DNA of 20,103 nt from a virus, in IMG/VR virus record IMGVR_UViG_3300027847_002098, positions 1 through 20,103 of that record, one strand, 5' to 3'. A model generated the notes under the pieces. That model had not been told where the DNA came from. It saw only the letters and a list, made by a program, of their open reading frames with translations, and did no database searches. The first letter of the stretch is position 1. The number at the start of each line of letters is the position of its first letter. Position numbers and translations under genes: made by a program. This document shows, one piece after another, positions 2,511 to 17,149 of this stretch.

Positions 2511-5500
2511 TTAAACATCTTCTATTGAAATAGATGTTACTTTGTTATTTACCGCAATACCAAACCTAACTAGTATTACTTTATTGGTAGAATCGCCTGT
2601 ATTGGCTTCTCCTAATTCTATGTTTGCAACTGCATTTGTTTGATCTGTGTTAATTGCAAAATTACCTTGGTCTACAGAACTTCCTGTTTTTCGAACACCG
2701 TTTGAATTATTTCCTGAAATACCGTTGCTATTAGATACAGTATTGGCACCAGGAAACCCTGATCCTCCAAACAACGTCGAACAATCTAACCAACCATTTA
2801 ATGTGCTTGTGTCATCTGTGTCATATCCCGGGATTGCTATATACAAAGATGTAACCTCGCCTGATATTTTAATAGCAAATCTATTTGCCCCATTTCTTTT
2901 AAAACCAAATGTAAAATATTGTATTGCATTATCTCGTCCTGTACTTAAATTAGGTCCGGCAGGTAGGTAATCACTAAAGTCTGTTAGCATATGTTTTATT
3001 TCATTAAGATAACAAACTGCTTCGGTTCTATTAATAATTGTAGATAAATTATTCCATGCATATGTTGTATAAAAATCACTAGAAGCATTTGACGAATAAT
3101 TTGGGGTATCGCCTGTCCAACTATAATCTATTCTTTTTCCTACTGTAGCACCAGTAATTTCTGCACCATGTGTCATATTAATAGAAATAGAAAGTTCATC
3201 CAATAATGGAGTTTCGTGCCAAAAATGAATTGGTTGTGTACTTTCAACTTTTGTTCCTTCTCCATTACAATTTTCAGCAAAAATTCTTGCATAACCAACT
3301 CCTAGCGATGTCCCACCGGTCAGCCCAATATTTAATGTACTTAGACTTTGTGTAGCCAACACACCCACATTTTTAGGTGGAGGATTTGTTAATCCAATAT
3401 CGGTATATGTATATGTTTTTTGTGTGAACACATCATCTGCTATACTATTTTCCCATGTTAATGGTTCTATTTTTACTTTTCCATTATTTCTATATGTTTC
3501 TCCGGTTAAATTTGCTACAGTAATTCCACTTATTGATATTTCGCCACTATTATTATAAAAAGGTATTGATGACATTATTCTTTTATTGCCCGGAGTAGAT
3601 TCTGTTATTACCCATCCACCTGCTATAGTAGGAGTGCTTGTTATATTATCATACACAAATTCTGTTATATCTGACGAAGACCCATCGGAATGGGTAAGTT
3701 TAATTTCATTATAACCCAATGGTGTACTTGTTTTTTCTACTTGTGCTTTTATTACTTTATAAAAATTTGCAGGTATAGTAGGTTTATTAGTAGTAATTGT
3801 ATTTGCATCAACATCAACAGTAAGTGTTAGTGTTCCATTGGTTACATTTGTTTGATCAGTTGCATTTAATTGTATTATTCCAGCACCTGCTCCATTTATT
3901 ATTGCTGTTAATGTTGCTGTATTTGTACCATTAGATGCAATTTTGTTTACATGATCACTAAGTTCTCCTAATTGTACTGTTGAATTTGTTACTCGTACAA
4001 CATCTGCTCCTGCTGTTATTGTAGTAGTTGTATTATTTGTTGTGTCGGATGCTAGTTTAGGTGCAGTTCCGATAGAAGTTAAACCCATAGTTTTTCCTGA
4101 TAAATTTGAAGGCGATACTGGCGCCGCTTTGATTTCTATGTAATCTGTTTTTATTTCTGTATCATCAACAAAAGTTGCGGCTCTACCAGGTACGCTTCCT
4201 GTTGCAACCGAAGTTGGGCCCGTTGCTTCTAATGTTACACTAAATGTTCCGAGAGCATAACTGTGATTTGATACATTTTGTGTAGAAGGAGTTGTATTAT
4301 CTCCCAAATCCCATGCCCATGTATCTGTATTAACACTAGTATTATTAAATGTAATCAAACTATAATCATTACCATCATATCCTGTAAATTCAAATCCAAT
4401 TTGTTGTGAATCATAGTTTGTATGTCCGGTCGAATCGGTTGTTGTTTCGCCGGTATAACTTGCTCTTGGATCAACAGTAACAGTAATTGTAGTTGCTGAA
4501 CTTGTTATTGGTGCAGTACTATATCCGTTATCTATTATTAATGTTACATCAAATGTTTGTGACACACTCGAATTAGTTGTATGTTCGAAAAAATGTTCAA
4601 TTACATTACCTGGTGTACCTGCGACATTTGATCCATCATCCACAATTACAGTATCGGCGGAAGTATCACCCCAATCCCATGTATAAGTTGTATTACCAAA
4701 TTCTCCCATATTTGAAGTAGTATTTGTAAATTCTACTCTCCAACCTTCGGTGCTACTATATCCTGCGGCTAGATTATCTTCAGGGGCATTACTATTACCT
4801 GTTGTTGTATCAGAAGTAAAAGTAGGTACTGGTAGCACATATATTTTAATATGGTCATCATTATCTAAATGTCCTATTTCTCCGCTAGGTCCTGCTGTAG
4901 GTGCCCATACATATAAATCAAAATCATATTCAATATCTGATGTTGTTGTCCAGGTGTGATCTACATAAGGAATATTAGTTATATCTGCCCATGCTGTATT
5001 TGATGTACCTAAAGGATCATTGTTAACAGCACCTGTAGGATATTTTGTTCCGTCACCAAATTCTATCATATATGTATCTGCATATTGTGTATCACTAACT
5101 GTATGCTGTATAATTGTACCTGTATCTGCATCATGGGTTGAACATACAACTGCAGGTATAGGCGATGGGGCGTAAACTGTTACATAATTGTCACGTTTAA
5201 ATACCGCATAACTGCCTTCACTACCTGAGGCATTAGCACTTGTTGCAATTGCTTTAAGTTCAACATTAAATGGAGAACCTACAAAAGTAGTATATGTGTG
5301 GGTATATGAAGCATTTGCTGTAGTTACTGTATTTCCGTCTCCAAAATCCCATTCATAACTATTAGCATTATAATCGCTTGTTGTAGTAAACACAACATCT
5401 AATGGTGCATTTCCTGTTACTGGAGTTGCAGTAAAAGTAGCATGTCGAACAAATGAATCATTTCTTATGTTTAACATTACTTCATTAACTGCATCAAATG

Positions 5501-8090
5501 CTTCTGTTATTGTACCTGTTGTATTAAAACCAGTTAATGGAATACCTGTATTAAATGTTTGGTTTTTTTGTAAAAATGCACCATCATGAAAAGTAGTATC
5601 AGCTGGCGTTCCTAATGTTGACGTTGTGCCTGTTGCACCTGTTGAACTTATAGTAAGTTGATCATCTGTTCCAGATTGACTTGTTACTATAGAAACATTG
5701 TCGCCTGCAATTACAGTCAATGTGTCGCTTGATGATGCCGCTATTATGTCTGCACCCGATGAGCTCCCTGTACCTGTATCTGTTACTGCTATAGTCTGAT
5801 ATGCGTTACCACCTTCAACATCAATATTTAATATACCACCCATACTAGCAGTTGATTTCGATTGATAATATAATTGCACCGGAGCATCCATTGGGACGTT
5901 AAATAATAATTGAAAAGTTGATCCTACATTCCCTGATGTAGACACCCCATCTGTATATTCACCTACTCCGCTTGCGCCGCCTGTTGAAGATGTAGAAATA
6001 TATAATTCGTTACCTATATTAGTACTATCAGTTTGGTTAAAAACATATAAGAATCCTTTATATATTCTTAAGGTTTGTTGTAAATTACCATTTAAATAAA
6101 ATTGTCCATTTGTAACCGTAACAATTTGTGTAGGTCCTGCGGCTTGAATTCCGTGGCCGAATATAAATTTGGAAGTGTTATTATTCCATACTACTTGTAA
6201 ACCATCTTCTGCTGTTCCTGGGGTACCTAAATTAGTATCTTCTAATCCTACTAAGGTGCCTACTCCTAGAGAACCGCCGCCTGTTGTGCCAGCATCTGAA
6301 CCCATTATCCATTTGCTAACACCCGAACTCCATTTTAAAAGCATACCATCAGACCGATTTGTTATATCAACATCATACAAATCTTCTATTGTTGCTAAAC
6401 CAATTCTGGCATCTACTCTAGTATTAGTATAATATAAATTAGTAGATCCTTCTGATAAATTAAAAGTAGATTTATTTCCGAAATTTGTATTAAAATCTGT
6501 AGAATCATACGGTTTTAACCATTCAAATTTTGTATTAGAATGATCGTATGTTAATACATAATTATCCTTAGAAGCACCAACAGCATCAACATCTGCTAAG
6601 TCAGGTAAGGATGCTAGTGCTATTCTAGCATCTGCTCGTCCATTTGTAAAGTATAAATTAGATCCTTCTGCTACATTATCTGTATCTTTAGTTGCTAAAT
6701 CTATATCAAAAAGAGTAGAACTGTAATATTTGTTTGTAGTTCCTTGAGGTACATCATCGGTATCACCATTCCATCCTATTGCGCCTGATGTTGTATTATA
6801 TATTATCGGATTAACTGCCGAAATTGCTACTCGTATGTTACTGTTTGTGGCATATTTGTTAGTGGATCCTTCTGATAAATTATCAGTTGTTTTGGTATTA
6901 AAATCTGTATTAAAATCTGTGGTAGAATATAATACAGTATTACCTGCCATTGCTTGTCCTACTCCGGTTCCTATTGTTAATGCAGTATCGGTGCCTGCTT
7001 CCCAATATCCAGTAAGACTGTTCCATTTTAATACTTGTCCATTGTTTGGGGTAGATGATATTGAAACATCAGATAAGTCAACTAAATTTGCAAGTGCTAT
7101 TCTGGCATCTGTTCTAGTATTAGTATAATATAAATTAGTAGTTCCTTCATTTAAATCATCAGTATCTTTTGCTGCAAAATCTGTGTTAAAATTAGTAGAA
7201 GTATATGCAGCAGGAACAGTAGACCATACAAAGTTTGTACCGTTATATTTTAAAAATTTATTAGTATCTGCATTAGTAGTTGCATCAACATCGGTTAAAT
7301 CAGTTAAATTTGCAAGTGCTATTCTAGCATCTGCTCTAGCATTTGTATAATATAACCTCGTACCTTCACTTAAATTTGAAGTTGTAAATGCAGATAAAGT
7401 TACACTTGCAGTTAATTTATTTTGTGCATCATCATATACTGTTTGAAATCCGGTACCATCTATAAAAAGTGCATCAACTCTATCATCAACTCTTTCATTT
7501 GTAAAATATAAGTTAGTTGTGCCTTCACGTAAATTGTCAGTAGTCTTTGATAAAAACCTAGTATCAAAACTAGCATTTGTATATGGATTAGCTAATTCAA
7601 ATACTCCATTTGCATTAGTTTTTAATATTTTATCTTGAGCTGGTGTACCTATTATAGTAACATCTGATAAATCGGTTAATTCTAATGTATATGGTTTAAA
7701 TTTATTTGAACTATCATATTTTAAAACTTGTCCATTAATTACAGTACTAGTTATAGAAACATCTTTTAATGCAGTTAGTTCTAATGTAGCGTTTACAACC
7801 CCTGTATCACTATATTTTAAATATTCAGAAGTATAACCATATGTGTATAATGTAACATCATCTAATTCTTCTAATTTTTCTTTAGAACTAACTGGATTCC
7901 AGGAACCATTAACATATTGTTCAATATGTTGTTTTCCTGTATCAACATTATAACGGATTTGACCCACAGTAGTTGCAGTTGCTTCTGCCGTAGTTCCAGA
8001 TGGTAAGATTAATGCGCCAGTAGTATTTAATGTTAAAACCTGACTAGTAGTTGAAAGTTTATCACGTTGATGATCTAAGTTTATGGCCAT
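2511..8090 (-). CDS. Giant modular fiber-like structural protein with EGTTNLYYTN repeats and PKD domains
   Basis: This 1859-residue protein starts at an ATG preceded by AAGGA with 8-base spacing and a GATAAATA late promoter. Residues about 180-560 carry seven degenerate repeats around EGTTNLYYTN, mostly followed by R.DARI.LA and DL.DV; such repeats are common in fibers of marine T4-like phages. A cupredoxin-like domain (about 653-757) keeps the terminal MGG but not the usual copper ligands. A shared linker (about 822-885) leads into four PKD-like beta-sandwiches, marked by WDFGDG (about 915), EFGDG (about 1010), WDWGD (about 1138) and WDLGD (about 1260). The last 200 residues look like a separate terminal domain rich in Gly, Ser and Asn. 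No signal peptide, membrane segment or peptidase motif was seen. A tail fiber or virion-surface adhesin is the best inference. The next giant gene follows after 14 bases and is probably co-transcribed. Confidence 0.88.
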   Translation of the reverse strand: MAINLDHQRDKLSTTSQVLTLNTTGALILPSGTTAEATATTVGQIRYNVDTGKQHIEQYVNGSWNPVSSKEKLEELDDVTLYTYGYTSEYLKYSDTGVVNATLELTALKDVSITSTVINGQVLKYDSSNKFKPYTLELTDLSDVTIIGTPAQDKILKTNANGVFELANPYTNASFDTRFLSKTTDNLREGTTNLYFTNERVDDRVDALFIDGTGFQTVYDDAQNKLTASVTLSAFTTSNLSEGTRLYYTNARADARIALANLTDLTDVDATTNADTNKFLKYNGTNFVWSTVPAAYTSTNFNTDFAAKDTDDLNEGTTNLYYTNTRTDARIALANLVDLSDVSISSTPNNGQVLKWNSLTGYWEAGTDTALTIGTGVGQAMAGNTVLYSTTDFNTDFNTKTTDNLSEGSTNKYATNSNIRVAISAVNPIIYNTTSGAIGWNGDTDDVPQGTTNKYYSSTLFDIDLATKDTDNVAEGSNLYFTNGRADARIALASLPDLADVDAVGASKDNYVLTYDHSNTKFEWLKPYDSTDFNTNFGNKSTFNLSEGSTNLYYTNTRVDARIGLATIEDLYDVDITNRSDGMLLKWSSGVSKWIMGSDAGTTGGGSLGVGTLVGLEDTNLGTPGTAEDGLQVVWNNNTSKFIFGHGIQAAGPTQIVTVTNGQFYLNGNLQQTLRIYKGFLYVFNQTDSTNIGNELYISTSSTGGASGVGEYTDGVSTSGNVGSTFQLLFNVPMDAPVQLYYQSKSTASMGGILNIDVEGGNAYQTIAVTDTGTGSSSGADIIAASSSDTLTVIAGDNVSIVTSQSGTDDQLTISSTGATGTTSTLGTPADTTFHDGAFLQKNQTFNTGIPLTGFNTTGTITEAFDAVNEVMLNIRNDSFVRHATFTATPVTGNAPLDVVFTTTSDYNANSYEWDFGDGNTVTTANASYTHTYTTFVGSPFNVELKAIATSANASGSEGSYAVFKRDNYVTVYAPSPIPAVVCSTHDADTGTIIQHTVSDTQYADTYMIEFGDGTKYPTGAVNNDPLGTSNTAWADITNIPYVDHTWTTTSDIEYDFDLYVWAPTAGPSGEIGHLDNDDHIKIYVLPVPTFTSDTTTGNSNAPEDNLAAGYSSTEGWRVEFTNTTSNMGEFGNTTYTWDWGDTSADTVIVDDGSNVAGTPGNVIEHFFEHTTNSSVSQTFDVTLIIDNGYSTAPITSSATTITVTVDPRASYTGETTTDSTGHTNYDSQQIGFEFTGYDGNDYSLITFNNTSVNTDTWAWDLGDNTTPSTQNVSNHSYALGTFSVTLEATGPTSVATGSVPGRAATFVDDTEIKTDYIEIKAAPVSPSNLSGKTMGLTSIGTAPKLASDTTNNTTTTITAGADVVRVTNSTVQLGELSDHVNKIASNGTNTATLTAIINGAGAGIIQLNATDQTNVTNGTLTLTVDVDANTITTNKPTIPANFYKVIKAQVEKTSTPLGYNEIKLTHSDGSSSDITEFVYDNITSTPTIAGGWVITESTPGNKRIMSSIPFYNNSGEISISGITVANLTGETYRNNGKVKIEPLTWENSIADDVFTQKTYTYTDIGLTNPPPKNVGVLATQSLSTLNIGLTGGTSLGVGYARIFAENCNGEGTKVESTQPIHFWHETPLLDELSISINMTHGAEITGATVGKRIDYSWTGDTPNYSSNASSDFYTTYAWNNLSTIINRTEAVCYLNEIKHMLTDFSDYLPAGPNLSTGRDNAIQYFTFGFKRNGANRFAIKISGEVTSLYIAIPGYDTDDTSTLNGWLDCSTLFGGSGFPGANTVSNSNGISGNNSNGVRKTGSSVDQGNFAINTDQTNAVANIELGEANTGDSTNKVILVRFGIAVNNKVTSISIEDV

Positions 8091-8125: not shown

Positions 8126-8157
8126 TGAAAAATATGGTCTTCGGGTATTATATAATA

Positions 8158-8177
8158 TGGGGCAAAGAAATGCCCCA
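8158..8177 (-). terminator. GGGGC hairpin, terminator-like, end of the cassette array
   Basis: TGGGGC and GCCCCA form a 6-bp stem with an 8-base loop in the gap after the 74-residue gene. The sequence matches the hairpins at 9590-9603 and 10836-10853 (GGGGCATTT...GCCCC), but a clean T run is absent on the minus strand (ATATTATA follows). It may be a weak terminator, a processing site or an mRNA 3' end protector. Confidence 0.5.
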
Positions 8178-8196
8178 TTATAAAAATAAAAACAGA

Positions 8197-8421
8197 TTAA
8201 CTTTTGAGGTCTTCTGCGCCTGCCATAGCAGAATCTGTTCCAGCTTCTTCCATCTTTCGAATAGCATCATTTTTTAGTTTTTCGTTAAAATTATGACCAA
8301 AATCTATTAAATCACCATTGTACTCAATTTGTCCAGGTGCATGACTTTTACGAATAATTAATCGGTCTTCACTATTTTTACTACTAATAAATTCGTGTAG
8401 TATTTTATCCTTTTTTGCCAT
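8197..8421 (-). CDS. Small charged protein of unknown function, 74 residues
   Basis: The start ATG is preceded by AAAGGAGA with about 8-base spacing, and the gene begins 22 bases after the stop of the first cassette gene, so the two are probably co-transcribed. The product is rich in Lys, Asp and Glu and contains LIIRKSHAPGQIEYNGDLIDFG followed by an amphipathic, helix-like stretch (NEKLKNDAIRKMEEAG). There is no Cys, signal peptide or membrane segment. I do not recognise the family. Its position among virion fiber genes suggests a small assembly or accessory protein, but the sequence does not prove this. Codon use resembles the AT-rich neighbours. Confidence 0.7.
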   Translation of the reverse strand: MAKKDKILHEFISSKNSEDRLIIRKSHAPGQIEYNGDLIDFGHNFNEKLKNDAIRKMEEAGTDSAMAGAEDLKS

Positions 8422-8443
8422 TGTTATTTTCTCCTTTAGTTAT

Positions 8444-9508
8444 TTAAGGTCCACCAGTCGATGAGGTTGTATTCCAGGTTGTAGTTCCAGGTGTTCTTAG
8501 CTTAAATCTCCATGCCGGCGGCGCCATGGTGGAAAAATAGCCCCAGTTCATTGATGTTGTTGAACTAGCCGACGGAAGCGCGCCAGCAGGCCCCATATAA
8601 CCATTCGGATCGCCTACTATTAACACCACACTCTTTACACTATTCCCAGAACTCCACATGTCTTGCATCCAATAGCAATCAAGGTCAATAGGACTTGTGT
8701 TTCCGGTGCCAATTTGTAGTTCTAAAGTCAGTTTTGTGCCCATTGGCACATTTCCGTCGCCCCCTTCCATTATCGGGTTAAGTATATCGGCATAGACCTC
8801 CCACAGACCTGACGGAACTGTGGAAGTTTGATATGGGTTCCATGAACCGCCTGATATTGTTACTAATTCAAACGGAAGGCCGGTATTGCTTGGATGGCCG
8901 GGTGGGCCTGCCCAAACGACCTGCATATTCTCCGTTGAAAGAGCTGGCGGCGTATAGTCTCCAAATTCTGTAATTGCGCCTTCCGACGGATGAGTATATT
9001 CCACAAAAGCAGAACCTCCTCCTCCTCCTCCGGAGGTATCGCTTACAAAGCTACCAGCGTCTTCAGCAGTTTCAAGTTCAACTGTTTCAATGTCAGTGCC
9101 TGCGGCTGCGGCGGGTCCGGTGAAATTCCACATAGCTTTTACATTTGTTGTAGAACCATCTGCTTGATAAACCAATGTTCTGTTCATAATTTTTATAACT
9201 CTATGAATAACATTATTATGATTTTTGCAGTTCATGATCATTTCATTTTCGTCTAATGGAAGTGTAGTGGATAATGCACCTGTGTCTTCTGATTTATTAA
9301 CCAAAGTACAAAGGCCTTCGTTTCCGGCCGCATCTTGTACTCTAAATCTATTAGTACCTTTTTGTTCCAAAATTGTATAGTCTGCAACAGGATTTGCACC
9401 AATCTTGCAGAGACCACTAATAGTTTCAGCACCTCCCGCTTGGCCAAATAATGCAGCATGGTCCATATCGTACTTATTAAGCCATAGTTTTTTTATCGGT
9501 CTTCCCAT
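8444..9508 (-). CDS. Cassette 1: paralogous phage surface protein, constant N-terminus and variable C-terminus
   Basis: This is the first of three tandem paralogs, 354 residues from the chosen start. An in-frame ATG at 9544 would add 12 residues (MGRRPRTSNGDI). The ATG at 9508 is preferred because GGAG sits 5 bases before it and the upstream ATG is destroyed in cassette 2. Residues 1-147 match the other copies: MGRPI, ITGLCKIGA-type and KGTNRFRVQD segments, CTLVNK, VMNRTL-type and AAAAGTDIETV. A glycine-rich linker (SGGGGGGS) follows, then a divergent, GC-rich C-terminal domain of about 190 residues. That domain retains MWSSGNS and W.FKL, faintly shared with cassette 3. The likely role is a virion surface or receptor-binding protein: the N-terminus would attach to the particle and the C-terminus would vary. 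This is inference from architecture and location. Confidence 0.8.
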   Translation of the reverse strand: MGRPIKKLWLNKYDMDHAALFGQAGGAETISGLCKIGANPVADYTILEQKGTNRFRVQDAAGNEGLCTLVNKSEDTGALSTTLPLDENEMIMNCKNHNNVIHRVIKIMNRTLVYQADGSTTNVKAMWNFTGPAAAAGTDIETVELETAEDAGSFVSDTSGGGGGGSAFVEYTHPSEGAITEFGDYTPPALSTENMQVVWAGPPGHPSNTGLPFELVTISGGSWNPYQTSTVPSGLWEVYADILNPIMEGGDGNVPMGTKLTLELQIGTGNTSPIDLDCYWMQDMWSSGNSVKSVVLIVGDPNGYMGPAGALPSASSTTSMNWGYFSTMAPPAWRFKLRTPGTTTWNTTSSTGGP

Positions 9509-9573
9509 AATATCTCCATTCGACGTTCTAGGTCGTCTTCCCATTTAAGGGCGAACTCATTTTTGAGTATTAA
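9509..9573 (-). promoter_or_regulatory. Conserved structured 5' leader of cassette 1
   Basis: The 65 bases between the late promoter and the ATG differ by one base from the cassette 3 leader and by three from the cassette 2 leader. It can form CTCA-AAAA-TGAG, CCC-TTAAAT-GGG and GACG...CGTC hairpins. It ends in GGAGATATT before the start codon, and the GGAG decides the start. A 10-codon reading frame (9560 down to 9528) lies inside, without an evident ribosome site. Confidence 0.65.
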
Positions 9574-9581
9574 TATTTATT
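9574..9581 (-). promoter_or_regulatory. T4-type late promoter AATAAATA for cassette 1
   Basis: The minus strand reads AATAAATATTAATAC, one base off TATAAATA, with the same extension seen at cassettes 2 and 3. It sits 65 bases before the start codon and begins 2 bases after the T run of the preceding terminator. Confidence 0.7.
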
Positions 9582-9582
9582 T

Positions 9583-9603
9583 AAAAAATGGGGCAAATGC
9601 CCC
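9583..9603 (-). terminator. Rho-independent terminator after cassette 2
   Basis: On the minus strand GGGGC-ATTT-GCCCC forms a 5-bp all-GC stem with a 4-base loop, followed by A and six T. It ends the cassette 2 transcript and abuts the cassette 1 promoter. Confidence 0.75.
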
Positions 9604-9615
9604 CTATTTTATTAA

Positions 9616-9648
9616 GATTGCAGTCAATTTAGTGCATTGACTGCAATC
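9616..9648 (-). repeat. Perfect 13-bp inverted repeat, 3' hairpin of cassette 2
   Basis: GATTGCAGTCAAT and its exact reverse complement flank a 7-base spacer, 18 bases after the cassette 2 stop codon and just before the GGGGC terminator. No T run follows directly, so it is not a classic terminator by itself. It is absent from the other two cassettes and could stabilise the mRNA 3' end or bind a protein. Confidence 0.75.
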
Positions 9649-9665
9649 AATTATTCAACTCTTAA

Positions 9666-10754
9666 TTAAGGCATTACTAATTGCCAACCCCATGGTACAT
9701 AATTGTACTGACTCGACTCATAGAAGTCAACAAAGACTTCGGCATGCCAGTCTAACTGACTCTGATTGTCTATTGCATAATTGTGAGAAAACTTGAATGA
9801 AGGCGAAGCCCACGAGCCAACATTCATCCAGTAACCATCCGTCCAGGTGTTCATAATGCAGTTGCATTCTATGCCTACAAGAGTGCTATAGTTGGTGTAG
9901 TCGTTGAGCTCACTAAAATAACCAGTGTCTGGCATAATTTTCATTATAAAAGGTATATGTGTTGATGGAACAGAAGGATTGATTGCTTGCAAGGCCGAGA
10001 TGCCCACATACTCAGCAAAGATGTTGTTGTCTCCTTGGTAAGCCGATGCCTGGTCCATTTGGAACCAATTGGACCCAGAATATGACCAGTATTTAATCCA
10101 CGATGATGTGCCTTCGTCTACGACCTGTGCCCATGGACTTGGATATTCAGGGTGAGCACCCGTGCCAAACTGCTCGGCTGCCGTGAACCCTGGCCCACCC
10201 GTAGGATACCAGTGAGGAGCATGATATGGGCCATATGTGCTCGGCGTTGGAGGCACATTGGTCCATACGATAGTCTCGCCTGATGCAGGGCCTGTAGCAA
10301 ATACAGTTTCAATTTCTTGAAGTTGAACTGTTTCAATTGATCCTGTGTCAGTACCGGCTGCTGCGGCCGCAGCAGCCCAACCCCACATTGCTCTTTTTGA
10401 TACATTAGCATCTGTTTCATAGATCAGTGTTCTGTTCATAACTTTCATAACTCTGTGCTTGATATCACCGCTATCTATGCAATTCATCATCATTTCATTA
10501 TCTGCTAACGCAGCGGTTCCTGCACTTAAATCGCCGGGTTTATTAACTAAAGTACACGTTCCTTCATTTCCGGCGGAATCTTGTACTCTAAATTTATTAG
10601 CCCCTTTTTGTTGTACAATTGTATATTTTGCAACCGCATTTGCACCAATTTTGCAGAGGCCTGTGATAAGTTCATTACCGGCCGGCAGTCCCGTCACTTC
10701 TGCGTGTGAGGCTCTTATCTCATTAAGCCATTGATCTCTTATTGGTTTTCCCAT
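9666..10754 (-). CDS. Cassette 2: paralogous phage surface protein, constant N-terminus and variable C-terminus
   Basis: This is the second paralog, 362 residues. It starts MGKPIRDQWLNEIRA at an ATG with GGAG 5 bases upstream. Residues 1-151 are close to cassette 3 in both protein and DNA: ITGLCKIGANAVAKYTIVQQ, CTLVNKP.DLSAGTAALAD and VMNRTLIYETDANVSKRAMW. They end at IETVQLQEIETVFA, and a short insertion gives GTDTGSIETV in place of GTDIETV. Homology then falls away. The roughly 210-residue C-terminal domain is rich in Trp, Tyr, Ser and Pro and GC-rich in DNA. It shares only faint marks with cassettes 1 and 3, such as F.MKIM and NTWTDG. No signal peptide or catalytic motif was seen. It has its own promoter, leader and terminator. 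A fiber tip or head-decoration protein is the likely role, by inference. Confidence 0.8.
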   Translation of the reverse strand: MGKPIRDQWLNEIRASHAEVTGLPAGNELITGLCKIGANAVAKYTIVQQKGANKFRVQDSAGNEGTCTLVNKPGDLSAGTAALADNEMMMNCIDSGDIKHRVMKVMNRTLIYETDANVSKRAMWGWAAAAAAAGTDTGSIETVQLQEIETVFATGPASGETIVWTNVPPTPSTYGPYHAPHWYPTGGPGFTAAEQFGTGAHPEYPSPWAQVVDEGTSSWIKYWSYSGSNWFQMDQASAYQGDNNIFAEYVGISALQAINPSVPSTHIPFIMKIMPDTGYFSELNDYTNYSTLVGIECNCIMNTWTDGYWMNVGSWASPSFKFSHNYAIDNQSQLDWHAEVFVDFYESSQYNYVPWGWQLVMP

Positions 10755-10819
10755 AATATCTCCATTCGACGTTCTAGGTCGTCTTCCCTTTTAAGGGCGA
10801 TCTCATTTCTGAGTATTAA
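10755..10819 (-). promoter_or_regulatory. Conserved structured 5' leader of cassette 2
   Basis: This is the same leader as in cassettes 1 and 3 with three substitutions. One is in the loop of the first hairpin (CTCA-GAAA-TGAG). One lies before CGCCC. One turns the alternative upstream ATG into AAG while extending the second hairpin to CCCTT-AA-AAGGG. Stems are kept and loops vary. GGAGATATT precedes the start. Confidence 0.65.
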
Positions 10820-10827
10820 TATTTATT
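10820..10827 (-). promoter_or_regulatory. T4-type late promoter AATAAATA for cassette 2
   Basis: The minus strand reads AATAAATATTAATAC, identical to the cassette 1 promoter, and lies 65 bases before the ATG at 10754. It begins one base after the T run of the cassette 3 terminator. Confidence 0.7.
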
Positions 10828-10828
10828 T

Positions 10829-10856
10829 AAAAAATGGGGCAAATAAATGCCCCATT
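10829..10856 (-). terminator. Rho-independent terminator after cassette 3
   Basis: On the minus strand AATGGGGC and GCCCCATT pair around an 8-base loop (ATTTATTT), and the hairpin arm runs into six T. It belongs to the same family as the hairpins at 9590-9603 and 8158-8177. Confidence 0.75.
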
Positions 10857-10884
10857 ATAAAACTAGGTAAATTATCCTTCAATA

Positions 10885-10952
10885 ATCAACATATATTTTA
10901 TTGTGAATCAAATCGGCCATCGTCTGGCCATTTATGATCAACATATATTTTA
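10885..10952 (-). repeat. 16-base direct repeat bracketing the cassette 3 stop codon
   Basis: TAAAATATATGTTGAT (minus strand) occurs at 10937-10952 and again at 10885-10900, 52 bases apart. The first copy encodes KIYVD inside the gene and the second straddles the stop. Read in the frame of the first copy, the second would give KIYVDY then TGA. A 6-base ggccat repeat lies between them. Confidence 0.8.
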
Positions 10953-11869
10953 AATTTCCAAACATTTGAGCCGGGCCATGGATTGTTTTGCGATTGGTCC
11001 CAGCCGTACATCAATTCAGCCTCGCCCGGAAAGAGCCCGCCGCTGGCGGTGTAGTCACTGGTATCAAATTTAAGCACGGATGAGTTTCCACTGCTCCATG
11101 GGCCGTACGAGAGTTTACAATTTACATCAAAGTCTGTAGTAGGGCCTGTATTCGCTGCGGAACGCATTATTTTCAAAGTAAACTTTGCATTGTATTGGTA
11201 ACTGCCACTGTAGAGGGCCACCAGGTCCGCAAACGCACCTGCGTCCGAATTATTAGGATGCCTCCAACTACCATTTCGGAGTTGATATTGTTTTCCATAC
11301 CACACTGTCGTGTTGCCGCCGTCACTCCATGTCCAAGGGCTGCCGGCGGACAACCACATGTCGGCGCCGCTCGTCTCCTCGCCAAACTCTTCAACACCGT
11401 TGTACTGAACAAATCCCGGTGCAAATACAGTTTCAACTTCTTGAAGTTGAACTGTTTCAATGTCAGTGCCAGCGGCTGCGGCCGGGGCGTTCCAACTCCA
11501 CATTGCTCTTTTTGATACATTAGCATCTGTTTCATATATCAGTGTTCTGTTCATAACTTTCATAACTCTGTGCTTGACACCCCCGCTATCTAAGCAGTTC
11601 ATGACCATTTCATCATCTGCTAACGCAGCGGTTCCTGCACTTAAATCGGCAGGTTTATTAACTAAAGTACAAGTTCCTTCATTTTGATTAGCATCTTGTA
11701 CTCTAAATCTATTAGTACCTTTTTGTTGTACAATTGTATATTTTGCAACATCATTTGCACCAATTTTGCAGAGGCCTGTGATAATTTCATTACCTGGCGG
11801 CAATCCTTCAAGCCCTACGTGTGTTGCTCTTATCTCATTGGTCCATTGATCTCTTATCGGTCTTCCCAT
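10898..11869 (-). CDS. Cassette 3: paralogous phage surface protein, constant N-terminus and variable C-terminus
   Basis: This is the promoter-proximal paralog of the array, 323 residues from the ATG at 11869. An upstream in-frame ATG at 11905 would add 12 residues but is not conserved in cassette 2. Residues 1-149 are nearly the same as in cassette 2 (MGRPIRDQW, IITGLCKIGA, IVQQKGTNRFRVQD, MNRTLIYETDANVSKRAMW), ending at IETVQLQEVETVFA. The following 174 residues are unrelated or only remotely related to cassette 2. They contain F.LKIMR, DFDVNCKLSYGPWSSGNS and VWKFKIYV, of which the WSSGNS and W.FK marks recur in cassette 1. The DNA becomes GC-rich exactly in this part. The last codons (from KIYVDH on) lie in a 52-base segment bounded by a 16-base repeat. 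A surface or receptor-binding role is inferred. Confidence 0.8.
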   Translation of the reverse strand: MGRPIRDQWTNEIRATHVGLEGLPPGNEIITGLCKIGANDVAKYTIVQQKGTNRFRVQDANQNEGTCTLVNKPADLSAGTAALADDEMVMNCLDSGGVKHRVMKVMNRTLIYETDANVSKRAMWSWNAPAAAAGTDIETVQLQEVETVFAPGFVQYNGVEEFGEETSGADMWLSAGSPWTWSDGGNTTVWYGKQYQLRNGSWRHPNNSDAGAFADLVALYSGSYQYNAKFTLKIMRSAANTGPTTDFDVNCKLSYGPWSSGNSSVLKFDTSDYTASGGLFPGEAELMYGWDQSQNNPWPGSNVWKFKIYVDHKWPDDGRFDSQ

Positions 11870-11934
11870 AATATCTCCATTCGACGTTCTAGGTCGTCTT
11901 CCCATTTAAGGGCGAACTCATGTTTGAGTATTAA
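11870..11934 (-). promoter_or_regulatory. Conserved structured 5' leader of cassette 3
   Basis: One base differs from the cassette 1 leader, in the loop of the first hairpin (CTCA-AACA-TGAG). It keeps the CCC...GGG and GACG...CGTC stems, the 10-codon internal frame and GGAG 5 bases before the start codon. Confidence 0.65.
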
Positions 11935-11942
11935 TATTTATA
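11935..11942 (-). promoter_or_regulatory. T4-type late promoter, exact TATAAATA, for cassette 3
   Basis: The minus strand reads TATAAATATTAATAC, a perfect match to the T4 late consensus, 65 bases before the ATG at 11869 and in the gap after the 77-residue gene. An AT palindrome (AATTTTA-C-TAAAATT, 11942-11956) lies immediately upstream. Confidence 0.8.
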
Positions 11943-11976: not shown

Positions 11977-12210
11977 TTATTCTAATTCCAATCCTCGTTT
12001 TTTGGCAAGAATTGCCACAAACTCAGTATCATCTATTGGTAACTCATTTTGCCAACATGTTCGTTGTTCTTTAAGAATATTACCAATAGAATCTTCCATC
12101 CACCAATCAAAGGTATAATTACCTGTTCGTTCAAAACACAAGTTTGTTATTGTCTTTCTACCAATTTTGTAATTGGTTCCTCCTACAACATTATATTTTT
12201 TTTCTGCCAT
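11977..12210 (-). CDS. Small protein of unknown function, 77 residues
   Basis: The start ATG follows AAGGAAATAACA, 13 bases after the stop of the 1295-residue gene, so it is likely co-transcribed with that gene. The sequence reads like a small beta domain: KYNVVGGTNYKIGRKTITNL, FERTGNYTFDWWMEDSIGNI, then an acidic C-terminus (LPIDDTEFVAILAKKRGLELE). It has two Cys, no signal peptide and no membrane segment. I do not recognise the family. Placement directly after a large fiber gene would suit a fiber assembly or accessory protein, but nothing in the sequence shows this. No terminator is visible between it and the cassette array. Confidence 0.7.
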   Translation of the reverse strand: MAEKKYNVVGGTNYKIGRKTITNLCFERTGNYTFDWWMEDSIGNILKEQRTCWQNELPIDDTEFVAILAKKRGLELE

Positions 12211-16450: not shown

Positions 16451-17065
16451 TTAATAAACACCACTAGGTACTATTACTTCCCAAGCATCAACTTTGCCGG
16501 TTGTTGCCTCAGTACCTCCGGTCCAATCAACTTCAATAACTAAATCATCGAAGGAGTTTGTTAACTGAATCTGACCTCCAATGTTCGACCCCTCAGCCCC
16601 AGTCCAACTAACTTCGGAGAGGTTAATTGTTCTTAAAGATGCAGAGCCATATGGTGCAACACTAAAAGACCAAAAAGCAAGATTTACTGTATGATGAAGG
16701 CTTGTTTGCCCCCTTATATAAATAAATCCTGCTGTATCCTCTCTTAACGCAAAATAATTTGAAACCAAAGTTGCAGTTCCACTGTAATTAGCAACCGCAT
16801 CTACTTGTACATTATTTGCAATTTTTCGCCACACCCAACCTAGTTGGGTATAAAGGACAGTTGTTAGGGATTCAGTTTCTGAATTTGTTCCAAGTGTCAT
16901 CCCAGCAAACGAAGGACTATTCGCAGTGCCAAGTCCCAACGCAGTTGCTGCTGCTGCTGAATTTGTTGAATTTGTTCCGCCTTGTTCAATAGCAAGAGTT
17001 CCGCTTGTGATTTCTGAAGCTGCGATACCATCTCCGTGGTTTGCGTTAGATCTTGCTTTTGTCAT
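16451..17065 (-). CDS. Short tail-fiber-like protein, 204 residues
   Basis: This is the first gene after the gp23 terminator, with a CATAAATA promoter and AAGGA seven bases before the ATG. The N-terminus MTKARSNANHGDGIAASEI matches the start of the 1295-residue fiber (MT.AR..A..GDGI..SE). LAIEQGGTNSTNSAAAATAL and a SPSFAGMTLG-type segment follow, a phrase typical of phage fiber N-terminal regions. Residues about 70-204 form a beta-rich domain with many Trp, Thr and Ser (YTQLGWVWRK, FIYIRGQTS, WEVIVPSGVY) that I cannot assign to a family. No chaperone or peptidase motif was seen. A small fiber or fiber-adaptor subunit is the likely role. The shared N-terminus suggests that both proteins dock at a similar site. 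Confidence 0.8.
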   Translation of the reverse strand: MTKARSNANHGDGIAASEITSGTLAIEQGGTNSTNSAAAATALGLGTANSPSFAGMTLGTNSETESLTTVLYTQLGWVWRKIANNVQVDAVANYSGTATLVSNYFALREDTAGFIYIRGQTSLHHTVNLAFWSFSVAPYGSASLRTINLSEVSWTGAEGSNIGGQIQLTNSFDDLVIEVDWTGGTEATTGKVDAWEVIVPSGVY

Positions 17066-17084
17066 ATATTATTCCTTGTAATAA

Positions 17085-17092
17085 TATTTATG
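17085..17092 (-). promoter_or_regulatory. T4-type late promoter CATAAATA for the fiber operon
   Basis: The minus strand reads CATAAATATTATTAC, one base off TATAAATA, 19 bases before the ATG at 17065 and directly after the gp23 terminator T run. It probably drives 17065 down to 11977, because no other promoter or terminator is evident in that stretch. Confidence 0.7.
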
Positions 17093-17096
17093 TCAT

Positions 17097-17125
17097 AAAA
17101 AAAGGATGTATCCGAAGATACACCC
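17097..17125 (-). terminator. Strong rho-independent terminator after gp23, TTCG tetraloop
   Basis: On the minus strand GGGTGTATC-TTCG-GATACATCC forms a 9-bp stem (one G-T pair) with a stable TTCG loop, followed by seven T. It lies 25 bases after the gp23 stop and separates head genes from the fiber operon. Confidence 0.92.
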
Positions 17126-17149
17126 TTATTTCTATCTGCTCAGTAAATT

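Follow-up and report, generated by a model that had tools for sequence, protein, structure and literature searches.

A virus fragment of 20,103 bases (IMG/VR record IMGVR_UViG_3300027847_002098; the whole stretch is hereafter called the window) carries three paralogous genes, c1, c2 and c3, each headed by a late promoter and a folded RNA leader. The proteins have in common an N-terminal domain of ~145 residues and differ in a C-terminal part of 181–217 residues. We think it probable, with modest confidence, that c1–c3 are late virion surface proteins in which a constant N-terminal head anchor carries interchangeable adhesion domains, encoded in RNA-led cassettes. The array itself is a real finding; the surface-display reading built on it is unproven. 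A first-pass annotation of this DNA had described three fibre-like genes with constant N-termini and swapped C-termini. Our analysis confirms its observation and supports its interpretation in part.

The repeated unit and its RNA leader

The three paralogues lie in a row, as first described; all are on the minus strand, and their DNA repeats in register, with one unit of promoter, leader and gene every 1.1–1.25 kb. Promoter, leader and gene start together form 126 nt at 81–92% DNA identity among c1, c2 and c3, and the almost identical 65-nt leader noted earlier is part of this stretch. A TATAAATA-like octamer, as expected of T4-type late genes, stands shortly ahead of the leader in all three cassettes, which bears out the claim that each has its own late promoter (Table 1). 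An upstream ATG, giving MGRRPRTSNGDI, was discarded as a start: it is present neither in c2 nor in relatives, nearly all of which begin with the residues MGRP, so the inner ATGs at 11869 (c3), 10754 (c2) and 9508 (c1) are the likely starts.

The N-terminal domain of the window proteins fitted no Pfam, PHROG or NCBIfam model, and their N-terminal half, used as a single-protein query, matched nothing in named phages or IMG/VR. Relatives were obtained first by similarity to the major capsid gene gp23 and then by a profile built from the cores of c1–c3. Among contigs fetched by gp23 similarity, this profile matched L005 at 8e-21 and L017, L062 and L024 at ~1e-10. Its iteration led to a family, otherwise without a name, whose members start with MGRP (MGKP in c2) and are usually ~130 aa long; we define it here as the MGRP family. 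c1–c3 belong to it by a profile match over the core together with an MG[RK]P start. The MGRP gene starts 129–2040 nt past gp23 in the 107 genes for which both lay inside the 3 kb searched. Clear members among named phages were confined to Atu_ph07, which has two copies at separate places, and Phosso, which has one. An AlphaFold2 model of c3 shows a confident small beta domain at residues ~30–130, the only reliable part of the model, and the best viral matches in a structural search with the core were unnamed proteins and Atu_ph07.

Alignment of the DNA ahead of the MGRP start codons revealed a conserved stretch that runs from a GATAAATACT-like late promoter to the Shine–Dalgarno sequence. In relatives, this leader is the Rfam RNA freshwater-2 (RF02980), directly upstream of the MGRP gene, and many relatives reach the gathering cut-off of that entry. 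Across 39 leaders, 93.6% of cells in the three-stem structure are paired, with 97 double-change cells compared with 27.8 after shuffling (covariation score 0.436 versus 0.122). Sliding the stem partners abolishes this signal. We built an RNA model, R1, from which the window leaders were excluded, and its top three matches in the window are the leaders of c2, c1 and c3 (19.8–26.0 bits, Table 1; next match, 11.2 bits). Each window leader folds into three hairpins, the last of which (P3) bears a CUAGAAC loop ahead of the Shine–Dalgarno sequence and start codon. On sequence grounds, the window leaders are diverged relatives of freshwater-2 RNA. The leader had been viewed as a shared flank; it is shared, and is more than a flank, being a structured freshwater-2-type RNA.

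RNA and gene occur together. RF02980 has no match at E values up to 0.1 in seven of 37 records, namely the window and six that also lack an MGRP gene. One record, G027, has a weak RF02980 match away from the leader. In the set selected by gp23, the P3 motif is found at 40 of 41 MGRP genes, the exception, in L035, being an operon-internal second copy. A scan for the P3 stem–loop pattern yielded 115 new loci, with a family protein at 111 and RNA at a contig end at the other four; as the RNA itself served to select these loci, the complete coupling seen among them says no more than that the motif was not found elsewhere. Judged by these sequence comparisons, the copied unit is the RNA plus the gene. 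Weak second RF02980 matches were considered as RNA copies and rejected, as those inspected (L064 and L019) are stretches before other late genes with ribosome-binding sites. A leader at L085:7925-8000 has the P2/P3 layout with a different P3 loop (ATCGGTAAAACCGAT) and is possibly a further diverged form of the RNA. The same motif also retrieved MGRP core members with other N-terminal starts, such as MAKLKIQ and MANRLKIAK (L168, L180, L220 and L237).

Multiple copies are rare. Of 128 non-redundant contigs, 123 carry one MGRP gene, four carry two and the window carries three. These numbers are lower bounds, many contigs being fragments, and the count requires the start motif and thus omits a diverged second copy in L019; records of 98–210 kb with an MGRP gene have one copy as well. 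With multi-copy arrays in 5 of 128 contigs plus L019, this is no general repertoire system. The pairing of promoter and hairpin with each gene had also been thought unusual. For the promoter and leader this is not so, as 122 of 123 single-copy MGRP genes have their own. It is so for the terminator, found within 110 nt behind 14 of 122 genes, c2 and c3 included. Another open reading frame (ORF) starts within 60 nt behind 106 of 122 genes, so the MGRP gene usually opens an operon. In the window, c3 and c2 each end in a hairpin, as proposed, and c1 does not: its hairpin comes after the 74-aa ORF p74, making unit 1 a unit of two genes. Terminator-like sites number 15, against 7.2 ± 2.7 in shuffles. 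A 13-bp inverted repeat at 9616–9648, immediately behind c2, is distinct from the GGGGCA hairpin.

Proposed exchange of C-terminal parts

The 5′ and 3′ parts of the three genes differ in their kinship. c2 and c3 share a further 300 nt at 88% DNA identity, and their identity per 60 alignment columns stays high until the end of the core and is low beyond it, falling from 45/59 to 9/33 in adjacent bins (c2 ~10299, c3 ~11421). The abrupt break reported at these points is thus confirmed, although 'nearly identical' overstated the preceding DNA identity of ~90%. The c1 core is 57–59% identical in protein sequence to those of c2 and c3, and identities by codon position also make c2/c3 the closest core pair. 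By contrast, c1 and c3 have homologous C-termini (BLOSUM62 local score 89 versus 36 ± 6 shuffled; z = 8.5, 0/500 shuffles), while the c2 C-terminus gave a shuffle-like score against both in the same alignment. The description of the C-termini as not readily alignable therefore stands for c2 against the other two and fails for c1/c3.

N-termini thus pair c2 with c3, and C-termini pair c1 with c3. The closest N-terminal pair is not the closest C-terminal pair. Exchange of 3′ parts is the simplest reading, and gene conversion of the 5′ part would serve equally.

The same core carries foreign domains in relatives. L147, L153 and L227 have tandem MGRP genes, the first of which (353–373 aa) ends in GLEYA/PA14; the GLEYA matches range from 1e-11 to 1.5e-14, and GLEYA and PA14 are both above the Pfam cut-off. 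A promoter-like octamer and the RNA stand at each tandem copy in L147 and L227, and the second copy in L153 lies downstream in the operon. GLEYA and PA14 domains are usually carbohydrate-binding. Another extension is common to L047, L126 and L200, and in L200 it is an E1_FCCH match (5e-10). Long insertions separate the MGRP peptide from the core in, for example, L068, L192 and L225. Together with the discordance in the window, these fusions, two of them in tandem RNA-plus-gene cassettes, uphold the idea of a constant N-terminus with an exchangeable C-terminus.

The window's own C-termini contain 10–18% W/Y/F, compared with 4–6% in the core. Searches with the C-terminal halves of all three gave nothing usable in IMG/VR, the PDB or Pfam, nor did those of c1 and c3 in named phages.

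Proposed function and setting of the array

We propose that every cassette functions as a late unit of its own, made up of a promoter, a folded RNA leader, a virion surface protein gene and an end hairpin. The ~145-residue MGRP domain would serve as the invariant anchor. Its most likely site is the phage head, given that the family adjoins gp23 and has late promoters. The C-terminal 181–217 residues would form exposed display domains that can be exchanged and that mediate adhesion, with glycans as the probable target, as suggested by the domains of relatives and by the aromatic composition. The diverged freshwater-2 leader travels with the gene and, given its position and the cis-regulatory class assigned by Rfam, would raise or tune expression, most likely by setting the stability or translation of the mRNA for an abundant late protein. 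Promoter, RNA and N-terminus would have been copied together and the 3′ part swapped by recombination in the shared 5′ stretch, giving three display variants. A further proposal, which we hold only tentatively, is that the widespread freshwater-2-type RNA is devoted to controlling a display protein on the phage head surface; together with the anchor it would then form a mobile cassette that co-expresses several adhesion domains at set levels, perhaps through feedback of free anchor on every leader.

On its minus strand, the window holds a T4-like phage head module with a prohead protease, a scaffold-position protein and gp23, whose nearest named-phage relatives are in the jumbo phages Phosso, Vibrio 2.275.O and the PA5oct group. 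Behind gp23 follow two small genes, a 1295-aa fibre-like protein, a 77-aa ORF, then c3, c2, c1, p74 and an 1859-aa protein (2511–8090). The last contains PKD domains, matches structural and minor-tail PHROGs and is likely to be a large fibre or whisker protein of the virion. The usual MGRP slot behind gp23 (16451–17134) is occupied by a 204-aa fibre-like gene; in L005, whose terminator and promoter context resembles that of this slot, a freshwater-2 RNA and an MGRP gene are found there. Since a private terminator is unusual and a fibre-like gene fills the usual slot, the array looks like an MGRP unit that was moved elsewhere, multiplied and closed off. The ORFs on either side of the array, p74 and the 77-aa ORF (11977–12210), had no family match; the DNA of their start regions is 91% alike over 22 nt.

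Table 1 Parts of the three-cassette array, in order of transcription
Feature	Position	Strand	Remarks
Late promoter octamer TATAAATA of c3	11935..11942	-	exact consensus
Freshwater-2-like RNA leader of c3	11870..11934	-	R1 match 19.8 bits; three hairpins
c3, 323 aa: MGRP core (~142 aa) + C-terminal domain homologous to that of c1	10898..11869	-	
Terminator hairpin behind c3, GGGGCATTTATTTGCCCC + T run	10833..10856	-	
Late promoter octamer AATAAATA of c2	10820..10827	-	one mismatch to consensus
Freshwater-2-like RNA leader of c2	10755..10819	-	R1 match 26.0 bits; three hairpins
c2, 362 aa: MGRP core + C-terminal domain without detectable relative	9666..10754	-	
Terminator hairpin behind c2, GGGGCATTTGCCCC + T run	9590..9603	-	
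Late promoter octamer AATAAATA of c1	9574..9581	-	one mismatch to consensus
Freshwater-2-like RNA leader of c1	9509..9573	-	R1 match 21.9 bits; three hairpins
c1, 354 aa: MGRP core + C-terminal domain homologous to that of c3	8444..9508	-	
p74, 74-aa ORF in same unit as c1	8197..8421	-	no family match
Hairpin of GGGGCA family, end of c1–p74 unit	8157..8178	-	repeat family D6

Several results weigh against head-surface display from freshwater-2-led cassettes. A search of the window with RF02980 gave no match, the gathering cut-off of 49.9 bits not being reached, and the folding energy of the window leaders is ordinary (z ~ −1.4), so that the case for these leaders rests on homology and position. 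The array starts ~5.3 kb past gp23, outside the distance typical of MGRP relatives, and is surrounded by fibre genes. Among solved structures in the PDB, the core gave Tudor/SH3-like matches at Z ~5, which we do not trust. The C-termini of c1–c3 have no Pfam match to PA14 or GLEYA, hhalign gave them a probability below 1% against a PA14 set, and a fold prediction for the C-terminus of c3 with that of c1 (pLDDT 34) was set aside. Finally, a C-terminal display domain is absent from most MGRP relatives, which means that the family's core job cannot be display.

The location of the array raises an alternative to which we give an appreciable, though limited, probability: that c1–c3 are tail or baseplate fibre components, with the MGRP core on the tail and the C-termini as receptor-binding tips. 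The cassette logic would be the same and only the site on the particle different. The array does lie between the 1295-aa fibre-like protein and the 1859-aa protein with its minor-tail and structural PHROG matches, and the genes behind the L147 array resemble fibre genes. Against this, c1–c3 had no tail-fibre family match in PHROG or Pfam (many fibres have no profiles), the usual place of the family is beside gp23 among head genes, and most members, at ~130 aa, are too short for a fibre. Family matches lend no support to the fibre-like identity assigned at first, and, with the core family adjoining gp23, c1–c3 are no less likely to be head surface proteins than fibres.

We consider it improbable that the array reflects a recent neutral or dosage duplication whose C-termini diverged fast with no selected repertoire, the 5′ likeness of c2 and c3 being due to gene conversion. 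The rarity of arrays would fit, and the C-termini of c1 and c3, still alignable, could be fast-evolving orthologous parts. Neutral divergence accords poorly, however, with the abruptness of the c2/c3 break, with a c2 C-terminus that has no detectable kinship to the other two, and with the clearly foreign domains behind the same core in relatives. Very improbable, in our judgement, are non-virion late proteins, such as assembly or host-takeover factors controlled accordingly by the RNA: the core fold at best resembles small Tudor/SH3-like barrels, a class with many roles, but fusions to GLEYA/PA14, which act outside cells, the late promoters and the location among head genes speak against them.

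Comparison with known systems

Like RF02980, the window leaders have three hairpins in order and a P3 loop of the form [CA]UAGAAC, followed by a Shine–Dalgarno sequence and ATG. They differ in being shorter (65 nt), with a P2 reduced to a CCC/GGG stem, and in scoring below the Rfam threshold. The Rfam entry describes a cis-regulatory motif only, whereas here the RNA goes with a late promoter and a single phage gene family. Freshwater-2 is thereby placed as the late-promoter leader of one gp23-adjacent gene family in uncultured T4-like phages, which makes its function testable.

The nearest named counterparts are proteins of Agrobacterium phage Atu_ph07 (AUZ95257.1, 326 aa, and AUZ95225.1, 470 aa) and Sinorhizobium phage Phosso (XYS97586.1), which combine the MGRP core with long C-terminal extensions. 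Atu_ph07 also has more than one copy, but its two are separated by ~24 kb, and freshwater-2 RNA went undetected at both.

In the exchange of T4-type tail-fibre adhesins, a constant attachment part is combined with an exchangeable distal part through recombination via shared sequence. The window cassettes would follow the same working principle, except that variants replace each other there, whereas here three coexist in tandem, in genes without detectable fibre homology. The family points to a natural display scaffold, in which one anchor carries different domains (GLEYA/PA14, E1_FCCH and the window's own), in some cases as tandem copies that include the RNA. This is relevant to the way in which uncultured phages vary their surfaces.

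As reviewed in PMC7602432, T4 Hoc has Ig-like domains and a capsid-contacting end domain, and Hoc and similar head decoration proteins attach to cell surfaces. c1–c3 would resemble Hoc and other head decoration or head-fibre proteins as modular head surface proteins with a capsid-binding part, adhesion domains and a late-gene location. They differ in having no family match, in their constant N-terminal core and variable C-terminus, and in their several copies, each with promoter and RNA. The proposed mode of action would thus be familiar from Hoc-like decoration, and the tandem RNA-led cassettes would be a new variant of it.

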